From an uncultured Agathobacter sp. (GTDB lineage: Bacteria; Bacillota; Clostridia; Lachnospirales; Lachnospiraceae), in assembly GCA_944381555.1 (NCBI GenBank), contig CALWLL010000012.1, forward strand, positions 1-50,685: a stretch of 50,685 nucleotides of DNA, read 5' to 3'. The translations under genes and the position numbers were made by a program. Shown one piece after another: positions 29,278 through 42,059 of this stretch; position 1 is the stretch's first letter, and every line of letters starts with the position of its first letter. The notes under the pieces are model-generated. The model did not search any database. It was not told the DNA's origin and saw only the letters and a list, made by a program, of their open reading frames with translations.

Positions 29278-29754
29278 TTACTCCTCGTCCGCATCATAAT
29301 TCACATCATACAATTTGCCTTCTACTTTTTCCAAGTACATATGCCCATCCAGATGGTCTAATTCGTGACAGATAGCTCTTGCAAGAAGCTCCGTTCCTTC
29401 CACCTCACATTCATTCATTTCCTCGTCATAAAAACGGGCGATTACATGATTTGGACGTGTTACCTGTCCGGCCTTTCCCGGAACACTAAGGCAGCCTTCC
29501 GAACCTGTCTGCTCTCCTTCTGCCAGAATGATGGTTGGATTAATCATAACAATCGGACCCTCTCCAACATCAATCACGACAAGACGTTTTAAAATACCAA
29601 CCTGAGGCGCTGCAAGTCCTACCCCATTGGCTTCGTACATGGTTTCAATCATATCATTGATTAAATCAATAATTCTAGGAGTAACCTCCGTAATTGGTCT
29701 ACATTTTTTTTCAAGTACCGGGTCTCCCTGTAAACGAATTTCTCTTAATGCCAT
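29278..29754 (-). CDS. def: peptide deformylase
   Basis: Removes the N-formyl group from nascent proteins. All three motifs are present: GVGLAAPQVG near 44, EGCLS near 87 and the metal-binding ICHELDHLDG near 128. The start at 29754 (MALREIRLQG) follows GGAGAATAAA and fits the family. The upstream in-frame extension of 17 codons from a TTG is part of a repeated RNA-like element, not of the protein. 158 residues. Confidence 0.95.
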   Translation of the reverse strand: MALREIRLQGDPVLEKKCRPITEVTPRIIDLINDMIETMYEANGVGLAAPQVGILKRLVVIDVGEGPIVMINPTIILAEGEQTGSEGCLSVPGKAGQVTRPNHVIARFYDEEMNECEVEGTELLARAICHELDHLDGHMYLEKVEGKLYDVNYDADEE

Positions 29755-29760
29755 TTTATT

Positions 29761-29851
29761 CTCCATTTCTGCGCCGCTTTTTACGCATATGTAGTTTTGA
29801 GTCAAGCAGCGCTAAGACTCAAAGTGCTGTGTGAAAAGTTCATTTTTACAC
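29761..29851 (-). repeat. structured repeat element, copy A (before def)
   Basis: A 91-nt sequence lying between priA and def, read on the minus strand. It can form three hairpins: 29829-29851 (GTGT/ACAC with an AAAA/TTTT inner stem), 29796-29823 (TTTGAGTC/GACTCAAA, 8 bp) and 29770-29787 (TGCG/CGCA). The minus-strand 3' end contains the GGAG that serves as the def ribosome binding site. A second copy sits at 41487-41579. Confidence 0.7.
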
Positions 29852-29862
29852 TATTTTCCTCC

Positions 29863-32127
29863 TTAAAAACTGCTCATAGGATTAAAGTCAAACTGCACAG
29901 ATATATTTTGAAAATCCTTGTTATCCTGTACGTAATATTCCATCCGTTCTTTTAGCAGAACAAGCTTCTGATATTCTTTTGTTTTTATATAAATTACCTT
30001 ACGGTAAATATCATTTACTTTTGCAACCGATGCATCTGCCGGACCGATCATCTGAATTTTCTCATCTTTTAGCAGTTCTTCATTATCCATGTGATATTTT
30101 AACCGCTTTACCATTTTTGCAGCCGCAGAAATAAGCTTTTGTTCCTGCTCAGATGCGCACATAATTACCAGAAGATTCCAAACCGGCGGATAGGACATCA
30201 TCCTGCGGTATGTAATTTCCTGTTCATAAAAATCCTCATAATTCTGTTCCTTAGATGTCAGAACCGCATAATGCTTTGGACTATATGTCTGGATAATCAC
30301 ATCTCCCGGCTCCTGCCCTCTTCCTGCTCTTCCTGCCGCCTGTGTCAGAAGCTGGAAGGTTCTCTCAGCCGCATGAAAATCACTCACATGAAGGGACATA
30401 TCTGCCGCCAGCACCCCCACCAGCGTTACATTCGGAAAATCATGTCCTTTTACAATCATCTGCGTTCCAACTAAAATATCTGCTTCCTGATTGGCAAATG
30501 CCTGTAAAATCTGTTCATAACTATCCTTCGTTCTGGTTGTATCAAAATCCATGCGAAGCACTCTGGCCTGCGGAAACCGCGCTTTAACAAGCATTTCTAT
30601 TTTCTGTGTTCCTGCCTTAAAACCACTGATATATTTCGAGCCGCAGGATGGACAAATCTTTGGCGCCGGTTCCTCGTAACCACAATAGTGGCACACCATT
30701 CTGCTCCCCTCCGTCCCGCCTGATGCATTATGCTGGCTTAACGACACATCACAGTGCGGACATTTTACAACATATCCGCAGGAACGGCAGGATACAAAGC
30801 CGGCCATTCCGCGACGGTTTAAAAACAACATAATCTGCTGCTTTTTCGCCAATCGTTCTTCCATCAATATCTGTAACTTCTCACTGAGAATCGAGCGGTT
30901 TCCCTTCTTTAATTCCTCGCGAAGGTCAATCACCTCACAGGCTGGAAGCGGCTTCTTTTGTACGCGCTCCGTCAGTTCCAACAGTTCATACCGTCCCTCC
31001 TTCGCATGATAGTAACTATCCACAGAAGGAGTTGCAGAGCCAAGCACCACGCTTGCCCCATTCATGTGCGCTCGTTCTATCGCAGTTTCGCGTGCGTGAT
31101 ATCTTGGGACGGTCTCACTCTTATAAGAGGCTTCATGCTCCTCATCTATAATGATCAGGCCCAGTCTGGAAAACGGAGCAAATAACGCGGAACGCGGCCC
31201 AATCATAATATCAATATCCCCATTTTTGGCGCGCAGATACTGGTCGTACCGTTCTCCCTGCGACAATCTGGAATTCATGATAGACACTTTATCCCCAAAA
31301 CGATTGTAAAAACGCATTACCGTCTGGTAAGTAAGTGCAATTTCGGGAATTAAGACGATTGCCTGTTTCCCTCTCTCTATCGTATGCGCAATCAGCTCCA
31401 TATAAACTTCTGTTTTACCGCTTCCGGTAACGCCTTTTAGCAGGTATGTCTTTGCCACACCGGCATCAAGGTCTTTTATGATATGGTCTGCCACAGCCTG
31501 CTGCCTGTCATTTAAAGTAAGGTGATAGCCCTTACTCTTTAAATGGTTTACAGGATTTCGATATTCCTCAAAGACCTTAACTTCCACAATATTCTGCATT
31601 TGCAGACTTTTTACGGTAGCAGCAGGAATATGCAGCCGCTGCATAACCACAGCGTAATCCAGTTCTCCCTCGGCAATCAGTTCCCGAAGCAGTCTGGCTT
31701 TTGCAGTAAAATGTCTGGCCTCAAAAAGAGCCAGCATTCGCAGGGCCTCTTCGTTGCAAAGAAGAAGTTTCAATGTCTTACGCTCTATTGCCCTCGTCTT
31801 CTGCTTAATTGGAATCACGGTTTTTAATGCCTGATTCATGGTTCCGCCATAGTTTTTACGCATCCACGCTGCTAAAGCAATAAGCTGGGACTCAATGGGA
31901 ATGCTTCCCTTTTTCACTCCTGTAATCGGCTTTAGCCTGCTTACATCAAATTCCGGCTCGTCCGTAAGCTCCACAACATAGCCCGTAATGGAACGGTTTC
32001 CAAAGGGAATCTCTGCGAGTACACCGACGCTTACTTCTTTCTGCAAATTATCCGGAATCAGATACTGAAAGGTTTTATCCAGTTTTTCATGAGAAATATC
32101 AACAATGATATTTGCATATCTGGCCAC
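29863..32127 (-). CDS. priA: primosomal replication restart helicase
   Basis: 3'-5' DNA helicase that reloads the replisome at stalled forks. An N-terminal DNA-binding domain (1-105) starts ARYANIIVDI; GVTGSGKTEVY is Walker A near 232 and DEEHEASYK the Walker B near 327. Cys clusters (CRSCGYVVKCPHC, MVCHYCGYEE, KICPSCGS) at 440-490 bind two zincs. C-terminal motifs include TQAAGRAGRG. The start is GTG at 32127 with GAGGTG before it. 754 residues, complete; first gene of the minus-strand operon down to thiN. Confidence 0.96.
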   Translation of the reverse strand: MARYANIIVDISHEKLDKTFQYLIPDNLQKEVSVGVLAEIPFGNRSITGYVVELTDEPEFDVSRLKPITGVKKGSIPIESQLIALAAWMRKNYGGTMNQALKTVIPIKQKTRAIERKTLKLLLCNEEALRMLALFEARHFTAKARLLRELIAEGELDYAVVMQRLHIPAATVKSLQMQNIVEVKVFEEYRNPVNHLKSKGYHLTLNDRQQAVADHIIKDLDAGVAKTYLLKGVTGSGKTEVYMELIAHTIERGKQAIVLIPEIALTYQTVMRFYNRFGDKVSIMNSRLSQGERYDQYLRAKNGDIDIMIGPRSALFAPFSRLGLIIIDEEHEASYKSETVPRYHARETAIERAHMNGASVVLGSATPSVDSYYHAKEGRYELLELTERVQKKPLPACEVIDLREELKKGNRSILSEKLQILMEERLAKKQQIMLFLNRRGMAGFVSCRSCGYVVKCPHCDVSLSQHNASGGTEGSRMVCHYCGYEEPAPKICPSCGSKYISGFKAGTQKIEMLVKARFPQARVLRMDFDTTRTKDSYEQILQAFANQEADILVGTQMIVKGHDFPNVTLVGVLAADMSLHVSDFHAAERTFQLLTQAAGRAGRGQEPGDVIIQTYSPKHYAVLTSKEQNYEDFYEQEITYRRMMSYPPVWNLLVIMCASEQEQKLISAAAKMVKRLKYHMDNEELLKDEKIQMIGPADASVAKVNDIYRKVIYIKTKEYQKLVLLKERMEYYVQDNKDFQNISVQFDFNPMSSF

Positions 32128-40297: not shown

Positions 40298-40311
40298 CTA
40301 AATCTTACAGT

Positions 40312-40663
40312 TATGCAGGACGATAAGCCGGGTTATGTCGTTGGGTGATCATCTATCTAGGACGACTGTTACCAGCCGCCTCAAGCGACCTACCTAAAGC
40401 TAGCGGGCCACATCATCGCTTTGTTTCGGTCTTGCTTCGGATGGGGTTTACATGTGCCCTCTCTGTTACCAGCGAGGCGGTAGTCTCTTACACTGCCATT
40501 CCACCCTTACTGCAGAACTTCCATTCCACAGCGGTATATTTCTGTTGCACTTTCCTTAGAGTTTCCTCCACCGGCCGTTAACCGGCATCCTGCCCTATGA
40601 AGCCCGGACTTTCCTCACCTGCGGCCTTTCGGCACTTGCAGCCGCGATCACCTGTCCTGCACA
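40312..40663 (-). ncRNA. rnpB: RNase P RNA, type A
   Basis: Catalytic RNA that trims pre-tRNA 5' ends. The P1 stem joins GTGCAGGAC at the 5' end (minus strand, 40654-40662) to GTCCTGCAT at the 3' end (40313-40321). The conserved core GAGGAAAGTCCGGGC, the CAGTAAGGGTGGAA-type region, the universal ACAGAGAG segment, GTAAACCCC and the 3' GCTTATCGTCCTGC-type end are readable. About 352 nt, normal for bacterial type A. The stretch upstream of the 5' end carries tandem repeats. Confidence 0.95.
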
Positions 40664-40823: not shown

Positions 40824-41480
40824 TTACCGTTTCAATTTTAAAATGGAATAATCGCCCCATGTATCTTCAGCAATTATATAAATATGCTCTTTATCAATAT
40901 AATAATTTAGGTAATATGTATCCCACTCTTCCTCTGTCCGGACTCTTCTAAGATGCTCTACTATTTCCTTCTGGGACATCACATGATAGCCACCATATTC
41001 AACCTCATATTCTCCCGTTTCCACCATTTGAATTAATGCTTCCAAACTAGGAATATAATCTTTCAGGTAAATAACACGCCCTGTCTCTCTATCGATTGTT
41101 AATCCATAGAATAACCCAACCGGATTTGGTGCACTCTCAGGCACATACAGCCTCTCAATGGTAATGCTATACACCTCGTCATCTGAATAAAATAAGTTCA
41201 TCCTATCTTTTGGACTAATTACGAGCCTGTCTAAAGACAAAAGATCTTCGTCGTAATCAAAGATTTCTGAGTTAACAAACCCGCTTTCCGTATCTTCTTC
41301 CGTGTTCGTACCCGATTCATTATTCATCCCATAAGATTCATCCGTTTCACAACTGCTGTCAGTCGTTTCGCTCACAGATGTTCCTTCACTTCCATCTTTG
41401 CTGCTATTGACACTACTGTTTCCACATCCAGACAGACACAATACCATTATTATCATAACAACAAAACTTCGTTTTTTCAT
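40824..41480 (-). CDS. lipoprotein of unknown function
   Basis: 218 residues. A lipoprotein signal ends in MVLCLSGCGNS with the lipid Cys near residue 20, followed by a Ser/Glu/Thr-rich linker to about residue 70. The rest is a mixed alpha/beta region (LVISPKDRMNLFYSDDEVYS, GLTIDRETGRVIYLKDYIPS in parts) that I do not recognise. GGAG sits 6 nt before the ATG at 41480 and belongs to repeat copy B. A longer reading frame from a TTG at 41531 is the repeat element, not protein. Confidence 0.75.
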   Translation of the reverse strand: MKKRSFVVMIIMVLCLSGCGNSSVNSSKDGSEGTSVSETTDSSCETDESYGMNNESGTNTEEDTESGFVNSEIFDYDEDLLSLDRLVISPKDRMNLFYSDDEVYSITIERLYVPESAPNPVGLFYGLTIDRETGRVIYLKDYIPSLEALIQMVETGEYEVEYGGYHVMSQKEIVEHLRRVRTEEEWDTYYLNYYIDKEHIYIIAEDTWGDYSILKLKR

Positions 41481-41486
41481 TTTAAT

Positions 41487-41579
41487 CTCCATTTCCGTGC
41501 CTCTTTTTGCACATATGCAGCTTTGAGTCAAGTAGCACCCAACTCAAATTATCGTGTTAAAAATTTAGTTTTCACACGA
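41487..41579 (-). repeat. structured repeat element, copy B (before the lipoprotein gene)
   Basis: A 93-nt sequence closely similar to that at 29761-29851 and in the same orientation to its downstream gene. Its hairpins are 41553-41578 (CGTGT/ACACG), 41522-41548 (TTTGAGT/ACTCAAA) and 41497-41512 (GTGC/GCAC). The GGAG at the end is the lipoprotein gene's ribosome binding site. Confidence 0.7.
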
Positions 41580-42059
41580 TTACTCCATTTCTGTCAATTT
41601 ATTATATATATCTATTCTCTTACTAGAATCTTTTTCTTTAGAATTTATTTCTTGAGTTACCTCTTTTACAGTAGGTGTATTTCCATCATCAAAAAGATGT
41701 TGAACATATGTCTTCCAATACCATCCTGCTGCTTCCCACGCATACTTTTCCGCAACATAATCAGCCCCCTCTTCTAGTATTCTCTCATCTCCCAAATCCT
41801 TAGAAAAACGCGTATAATTATATCTTCCTGTTAACTGAATGTATCCTGCGCCTCGATATGTATATCCATCCTCACCGCCTTGATTTCCAACTGCATATGC
41901 ATACTTTTCATTAAAATATTCCCTATTAACCGCCTCATCTTGATTGTTATAGCCCGTCTCCCAATCTACCTCTATTAACGCCCATCCGAAATAAGACTCT
42001 ATGTAAGATTGTGCTAAAAAATGGTCTATTTCCCTTCTATAAAAAAACGGACAAAGTTG
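41580..42059 (-). pseudogene. GH19-like chitinase/lysozyme fragment, 5'-truncated
   Basis: The frame open from at least 42059 to the stop at 41580 reads EIDHFLAQSYIES, EYFNEKYAYAVGNQGG, TYRGAGYIQLTGRYNYTRF and AEKYAWEAAGWYW, matching the GH19/lysozyme-like fold, including the Glu of the first helix and the RGxGYIQLTGRxNY block. No start codon with a ribosome binding site is visible, and the frame runs back into a terminator of the neighbouring operon. The N-terminal part (signal peptide or binding modules) is missing. It is probably a remnant. Confidence 0.7.

Follow-up and report, generated by a model that had tools for sequence, protein, structure and literature searches.

We find that a repeat of about 88 nt, present twice in a 50,685-nt contig of an uncultured Agathobacter sp. 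(the window), is probably a mobile and apparently non-autonomous element that integrates between the Shine-Dalgarno sequence (SD) of a gene and its start codon, oriented in the coding direction; we infer both the tolerance of such insertions and the role of the fold. The three hairpins in two copies of the original prediction give way to a real and widespread mobile repeat with a covarying pseudoknot, which is located at start codons and carries an SD at its 3' end.

Both copies in the window, called A and B, lie on the minus strand, align end to end and run from GTGTRAAAA to AAATGGAG-N6-ATG. The original prediction had reported two copies aligning almost end to end, in the same orientation to a downstream gene and each ending in GGAG. 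They are present in these places, with GGAG 6 nt before an ATG in each, and their RNA sense is the minus strand. The start of def in the window reads TAAGGAGGAAAATA-[element]-ATGGCATTAAGAG. A promoter and terminator scan around copy A found none, and stops are abundant upstream of copy B in the one frame read. The features of the window are as follows.

29278 to 29754, minus strand: def, peptide deformylase (TIGR00079), the gene 3' of copy A
29761 to 29851, minus strand: copy A, from GTG (29849-29851) to the 3' GGAG, between the native SD and the start codon of def
29761 to 29764, minus strand: 3' SD (GGAG) of copy A, 6 nt from the def ATG (29752-29754)
29771 to 29812, minus strand: P3 pseudoknot of copy A, loop strand 29806-29812 with 29771-29777, from covariation and own-versus-swapped pairing
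29796 to 29823, minus strand: P2 hairpin of copy A, 29816-29823 with 29796-29803
29829 to 29851, minus strand: P1 hairpin of copy A, 29844-29851 with 29829-29837, C29833 bulged in this copy
29858 to 29862, minus strand: native SD (GGAGG) of def, kept 5' of copy A, right after the stop of the upstream ORF (29863-29865)
29863 to 32127, minus strand: ORF upstream of copy A, which we take to be priA after the name used in the original prediction rather than from a family scan
40824 to 41480, minus strand: ORF downstream of copy B, with a lipoprotein-like N-terminus; presumably a lipoprotein, by its N-terminal motif
41487 to 41577, minus strand: copy B, from blastn and alignment with copy A
41497 to 41538, minus strand: P3 pseudoknot of copy B, 41532-41538 with 41497-41503, 6 of 7 pairs
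41583 to 41593, minus strand: CAGAAATGGAG, a possible relic of an older copy, adjoining the 5' side of copy B and identical to an element 3' end

Stretches similar to CAGAAATGGAG also precede copies L153 and L156 in genome G235 and L202 in G022, as if new copies insert beside older ones.

Copy number in the genome of the window (G000) is far above chance. A blastn search with copy A returned 17 copies at 75-100% identity, and a covariance model built from these 17 found 19 places at E<1e-12 (36 matches at E<=1 in all, those beyond the 19 being weak). At E<=1e-4, other genomes held 16 (G006), 25 (G014), 51 (G022), 63 (G235) and 81 (G212) copies; the five genomes closest by def (G303, G315, G023, G007 and G308) held none and the sixth, G311, held one, with some of the closest-relative assemblies being incomplete (58-99% complete). 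In a survey of the family with one genome per genus, the window genome included, 69 of 250 genomes matched at E<=1e-3 under strict filters and with 15 candidates scored per genome. Covariance searches of this genome and of other Lachnospiraceae, both suggested with the original prediction, thus returned further copies. A class-wide draw gave matches at 1e-4 in 10 of 391 genomes, namely the window genome, three others from its family and six from outside it; these last six gave weak matches, and three of them (L402, L405 and L408) carry the 3' signature before an ATG. Records from a pattern search, among the 80 listed of 116 stretches, were mostly Lachnospiraceae or Roseburia, Acetatifactor and Lachnoclostridium, with a few titled only Clostridium sp. 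or Bacillota bacterium. Overall, the element is patchy yet widespread in the host family and rare elsewhere. Copies of one genome have P1 sequence types in common (GAGTG in G006, for instance, and GATTG in some copies of G022), and lineage-specific amplification is supported.

Two sets of copies were used for most comparisons. The first comprised 103 copies extracted from seven genomes (21 from G000, two of them weak; 20 of 63 from G235; 20 of 81 from G212; 20 of 51 from G022; 10 of 16 from G006; 10 of 25 from G014; 2 of 5 from G019), which are among the best scoring and were retrieved by models containing the SD and ATG. The second comprised 82 further copies in named genomes, from 80 loci fetched by a pattern that includes the SD, which biases their context.

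At gathering thresholds, an Rfam 15 scan of the window matched only RNase P, with nothing over the element, and scans of 8 loci and another 17 loci found no family above threshold over it. A literature search returned no title or abstract opening describing the element, so the earlier statement that no described family matches holds for Rfam 15 at gathering thresholds and for titles and abstract openings. The RNase P RNA is of bacterial class A and lies at 40308-40663 on the minus strand (292.9 bits). We rejected a phage or plasmid vehicle: a 26-base element pattern had no exact match in viral_contigs, and copy A had no blastn match at E<=0.01 in plasmid and phage collections.

The conserved fold is two hairpins plus a covarying pseudoknot, adjoining the 3' SD. 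Over 17 copies, 86.0% of cells were paired in P1 and 92.4% in P2, in agreement with the earlier claim that the first and second hairpins persist, and 96.6% in P3. The P3 pseudoknot joins the P2 loop to the strand just before the 3' SD and shows two-sided changes, including C-G to U-A in three copies (columns 63/93) and GCGC/GCGC in copy A versus GTGC/GCAC in copy B. An alignment of 33 copies from nine genomes in two families, fitted to P1 and P2 and not to P3, contained two-sided changes in 16 of 24 pairs. It had 66 two-sided cells compared with 19.6 in shuffles and at most 22 with partners slid, where shuffle tests overstate independence given that the copies are mutually related. Further copies without covariation had been named as counter-evidence to the original prediction; covariation was what we found in them. 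A 28-copy core without P1 or tail still had 20 two-sided cells (8.0 expected), with no excess in the number of pairs showing such changes (214 of 500 shuffles).

Alignment-free comparison of P3 strands gave the same picture. Across 100 of the 103 copies, own strands paired at -9.63 kcal/mol and swapped strands at -8.68 kcal/mol (p 0.0002), a difference that holds within genomes. In a larger set (149 of 185 copies), in which the loop strand was misplaced in some copies, the values were -9.08 and -8.58 (p 0.0004, and 0.004 within groups). The third hairpin, which pairs the linker with the same 3' strand, is weaker. Over the 149 copies its own strands were only marginally better partners than swapped ones (p 0.012; p 0.38 for swaps within groups), and 5 of 17 copies have A-C in place of one of its pairs (columns 83/99). 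The original prediction had rested its third stem on an exchange of C-G (29772/29785) for T-A (41498/41511). We see this compensating change as described, and it fits P3 as well; a conserved third stem was not borne out. Three simple hairpins were therefore replaced by two hairpins and a pseudoknot. Since all three strands changed together in copy B, the third hairpin may be an alternative state.

Single-sequence folding found copy A mildly unusual (z -1.54) and copy B more so (z -4.26). Predicted SD accessibility was 0.553 compared with 0.515 in shuffled upstream sequence, from folding that leaves the pseudoknot outside the model; with so small a difference, we set aside SD exposure as the effect of the element. 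Some copies depart from the common form. Most of L163-L171 (G235) have a hairpin of type GAACCAACTTTGTTGGTTC instead of P1; L166 and L167 have both P1 types in tandem. Copies L159, L160, L203 and L208 carry hairpin-like extra stretches in the P2 loop (L208 also in the linker), with the pseudoknot strands untouched. In the weak match L040 (E 0.027; G000:C44:31867-31917), P1 nearly abuts GAAATGGAGATTAAAATG, as if the middle were deleted.

Copies of the element lie at translation starts. Among the 103 extracted copies, 94 stand directly before an ATG-initiated ORF of at least 40 codons, compared with 865 of 5150 random positions (17%) in the same loci, and the same is true of 77 of the 82 pattern-fetched copies. 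A model trimmed of SD and ATG found the same 19 places in the window genome, along with one weak 38-base match that overlaps a weak match of the full model. In all of the first 17 copies from this genome, an ATG follows a few bases past the SD in the same direction; the frame after it is short in two (7 codons in L013, 52 in L004). The 3' SD is usually about 6 nt before the ATG of the gene. Insertion at the start codon in the coding direction is what these 94 of 103 copies, and the empty sites in relatives described below, display. An upstream open frame of at least 100 codons ends within about 80 nt in 61 of 103 copies, so many copies probably lie inside operons.

Comparison with relatives indicates mobility. 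Loci for def were returned from 29 relatives, and in 29 of 29 the gene starts without the element (def was matched in 57 of 60 genomes, the window genome included). In G303, for example, def begins TAAGGAGG...ATGGCATTAAGAG, i.e., TAAGGAGGAAATAGAAAA-ATGGCATTAAGAG, without the element. Eight more genes gave the same result in four relatives, with the element absent in 22 of 22 ortholog places (22 of 23 places were used, a 47-base partial match being left out). These genes were ackA, pepT, rbfA, hypE, whiA, rfbC, a binding-protein gene and what is presumably a PmbA-like gene; ten gene starts had been queried, and trpC and an ATP-grasp gene gave no usable ortholog. The empty site is clearest at whiA: G308 and G303 read AGAGGAAAATARA-ATG at the very position taken by a shortened copy. 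Scanning the relatives' def and other eight gene starts with the covariance model gave no match at any start; in L130 and L113 weak matches lay at the end of def opposite to its start (E 0.004 and 0.008), and weaker ones fell elsewhere in L122 and L117 (E 0.09 and 0.1). Covariation, lineage-specific amplification and empty sites in relatives together bear out the original view of a structured, mobile RNA. Its observations are partly confirmed overall, and its interpretation is partly supported.

The gene's old SD is often still recognizable on the 5' side of the element. Among named-genome copies, GGAG or GAGG precedes the NTG of P1 in 38 of 45 scorable copies (of 82), against a background of 9.7%, at a distance of 3-11 nt, mostly 5-6. 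This core is present in 9 of 11 copies in G235 and 5 of 8 in G006, and in only 4 of 13 in G000, 2 of 11 in G212 and 2 of 9 in G022. Of the 89 copies used (from 185), 66 have a frame that runs from the NTG to the new SD without a stop, compared with 34.3 expected from dinucleotide shuffles; in 40 of them it terminates no more than 20 nt from the ATG, in 14 it joins the gene in frame and in 12 it overlaps further. An earlier internal-frame count found it open in 35 of 60, with 0 and 7 for the other two frames. The window genome shows no excess (5 of 13, 4.4 expected), and the short frame therefore seems to belong to young copies and not to be preserved afterwards.

These features suggest how an insertion could be survived. 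Insertion would place the element between the old SD and the start codon, in the coding direction. Ribosomes drawn by the old SD could initiate at the NTG of the element and translate a short frame ending near the new SD; alternatively, they could load directly on the new SD. With either route still serving ribosomes, the insertion would be tolerated, even at essential genes. The pseudoknot may persist because the start site remains usable with it, or because it modulates how that site is used. Since a copy ends in an SD, control of downstream translation, as originally proposed, is plausible, and any regulatory effect is putative. More tentatively, the repeat may represent a new class of selfish element that targets the translation start site. 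It would recognize the SD region, insert one way and render itself harmless through the start codon, short frame, pseudoknot and second SD that it brings along; whole genomes could in this way accumulate dozens of copies before essential genes.

A different reading of the same fold is a cis-regulatory RNA, either a riboswitch or a protein-binding leader, that serves a real regulon and whose pseudoknot by the SD switches translation on a signal. The conserved pseudoknot beside the SD, the conserved linker and the near-fixed distance to the start codon would all suit such an RNA, as would the resemblance to preQ1-II, in which a hairpin is followed by a second hairpin with its loop pseudoknotted close to the SD. 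Copy A aligns with the preQ1-II family (RF01054) over its full length but weakly, at 26.8 bits against a gathering threshold of 47, and it was the only match among 8 loci, with none among another 17. The element pairs just before the SD rather than in it, copy A precedes def, and no queuosine genes occurred among the downstream proteins named (18 of 20 scanned) or the Pfam families listed (25 of 123). We rejected preQ1-II identity on the sub-threshold score for this single copy. The genes downstream are largely unrelated, encoding peptide deformylase, acetate kinase, RbfA, TrpC, PepT, HypE, RmlC, a GyrB/ParE-type subunit, GroEL, EF-Ts, PheS, FabZ, CoaD (two genomes), WhiA, GlmS and LeuD. In a Pfam scan of 82 of 83 chosen downstream proteins, no family, among the 25 of 123 listed, matched more than two. 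This list does not look like a metabolic regulon. With sites empty at nine of nine genes compared, no copy in the five closest relatives and copies of one genome resembling one another, we rejected a regulon or riboswitch as the leading view on gene diversity and empty sites, and consider it unlikely. (Copies precede coaD in two genomes of different genera, L169 in G235 and L172 in G212.) Far less credible still is a protein-coding module. The frame open in 66 of 89 copies and the similar peptides recurring in several genomes speak for it, but single-base changes in linker length shift the frame, peptide ends differ between subfamilies and the base pairs covary; we rejected it because the frame is not conserved.

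Two further readings accept an insertion between SD and start codon and differ in how the DNA would move. If the element were MITE-like, a DNA transposase would move it and duplicate about 7-10 bp, SD included, which would make the second SD host sequence. Exact duplicates do flank L192 (GAGGAATAAA on both sides) and L194 (GAGGAGAAA on both sides), and both whiA flanks resemble the empty site. Inverted repeats are missing, however, with terminal scores over 96 copies of 4.04 compared with 3.76 for shuffled ends. Target-site duplication was convincing by eye in G006 and failed most permutation tests: per genome, with 6 of 103 copies (no recognizable P1 or tail) and the two G019 copies left out, only G006 was significant (p 0.013), and G235, G212, G022, G014 and G000 were not. 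For 54 young copies, out of the 82 fetched by pattern, the test gave p 0.0004 overall but p 0.06 once swaps were confined to subfamilies. Which SD stands at the 3' end depends largely on the genome: it is GGAG in 13 of 21 copies in the window genome and GAGG in 18 of 20 in G235. The 3' SD accordingly seems to belong to the element and not to come from a duplicated target. We regard a MITE-like origin as possible, if on the doubtful side. In the SINE-like alternative, a reverse transcriptase acting in trans would copy the RNA to DNA, which would account for copies shortened on the 5' side, for 3' ends that stay intact and for the missing inverted repeats. Of the places in G235 that match a single end pattern, 11 have only the 3' one and one has only the 5' one; at least two of the 11 (L159 and L160) are complete copies with an insertion in the loop. 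Several named-genome copies keep an intact 3' end with the 5' half absent. This asymmetry would fit copying from the 3' end, but also selection for the 3' SD, and the fetching pattern itself favors intact 3' ends. Using PF00078 as the sole reverse transcriptase model, at E<=1e-5, we found one match each in G000, G006, G014, G235, G203 and G166 but none in the copy-rich genomes G022 and G212, which have 51 and 81 copies. These two genomes argue against copying from the 3' end; we rejected a reverse transcriptase in trans on this count and judge the SINE-like account improbable. Insertion of an apparently non-autonomous repeat behind the old SD, with a 3' SD of its own, is the reading that we retain.

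The hosts of MIRUs, mycobacteria, belong to a phylum different from that of the element's hosts. Compared by description rather than by sequence, MIRUs behave in a similar way, with start-codon insertion and a short internal frame: the cited passage describes them as apparently mobile, inserting at start codons with an ORF coupled to the gene behind, probably with little harm (PMC12548453). Coupling there is at -4 nt, whereas in the element the frame has several end points, with a second SD behind it; that passage mentions no pseudoknot, and the element's is conserved (PMC12548453). BOX, RUP and SPRITE of pneumococcus are described as small, structured, multi-copy, probably non-autonomous and co-transcribed with genes, and the element is like these and MITEs in size, structure, copy number and probable non-autonomy (PMC3049150). 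In the same description, MITEs are marked by terminal inverted repeats, which the element lacks, and SPRITE resembles a terminator, whereas element copies face one way and target a start site (PMC3049150). Rickettsia RPE repeats are likewise small and join open frames of host genes, but are described as in-frame inserts inside genes (PMC10969869); the element stands before the start codon and conserves RNA pairs.

If this reading is correct, mobile RNA elements occur by the tens in a large family of gut bacteria, where they either take the place of the ribosome-binding sites of housekeeping genes or add a second one, and the annotation of start codons and leaders in Lachnospiraceae would change. 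The copies would also offer natural experiments on a pseudoknot beside the SD and on initiation, and would pose the question of what machinery inserts DNA specifically at translation start sites.
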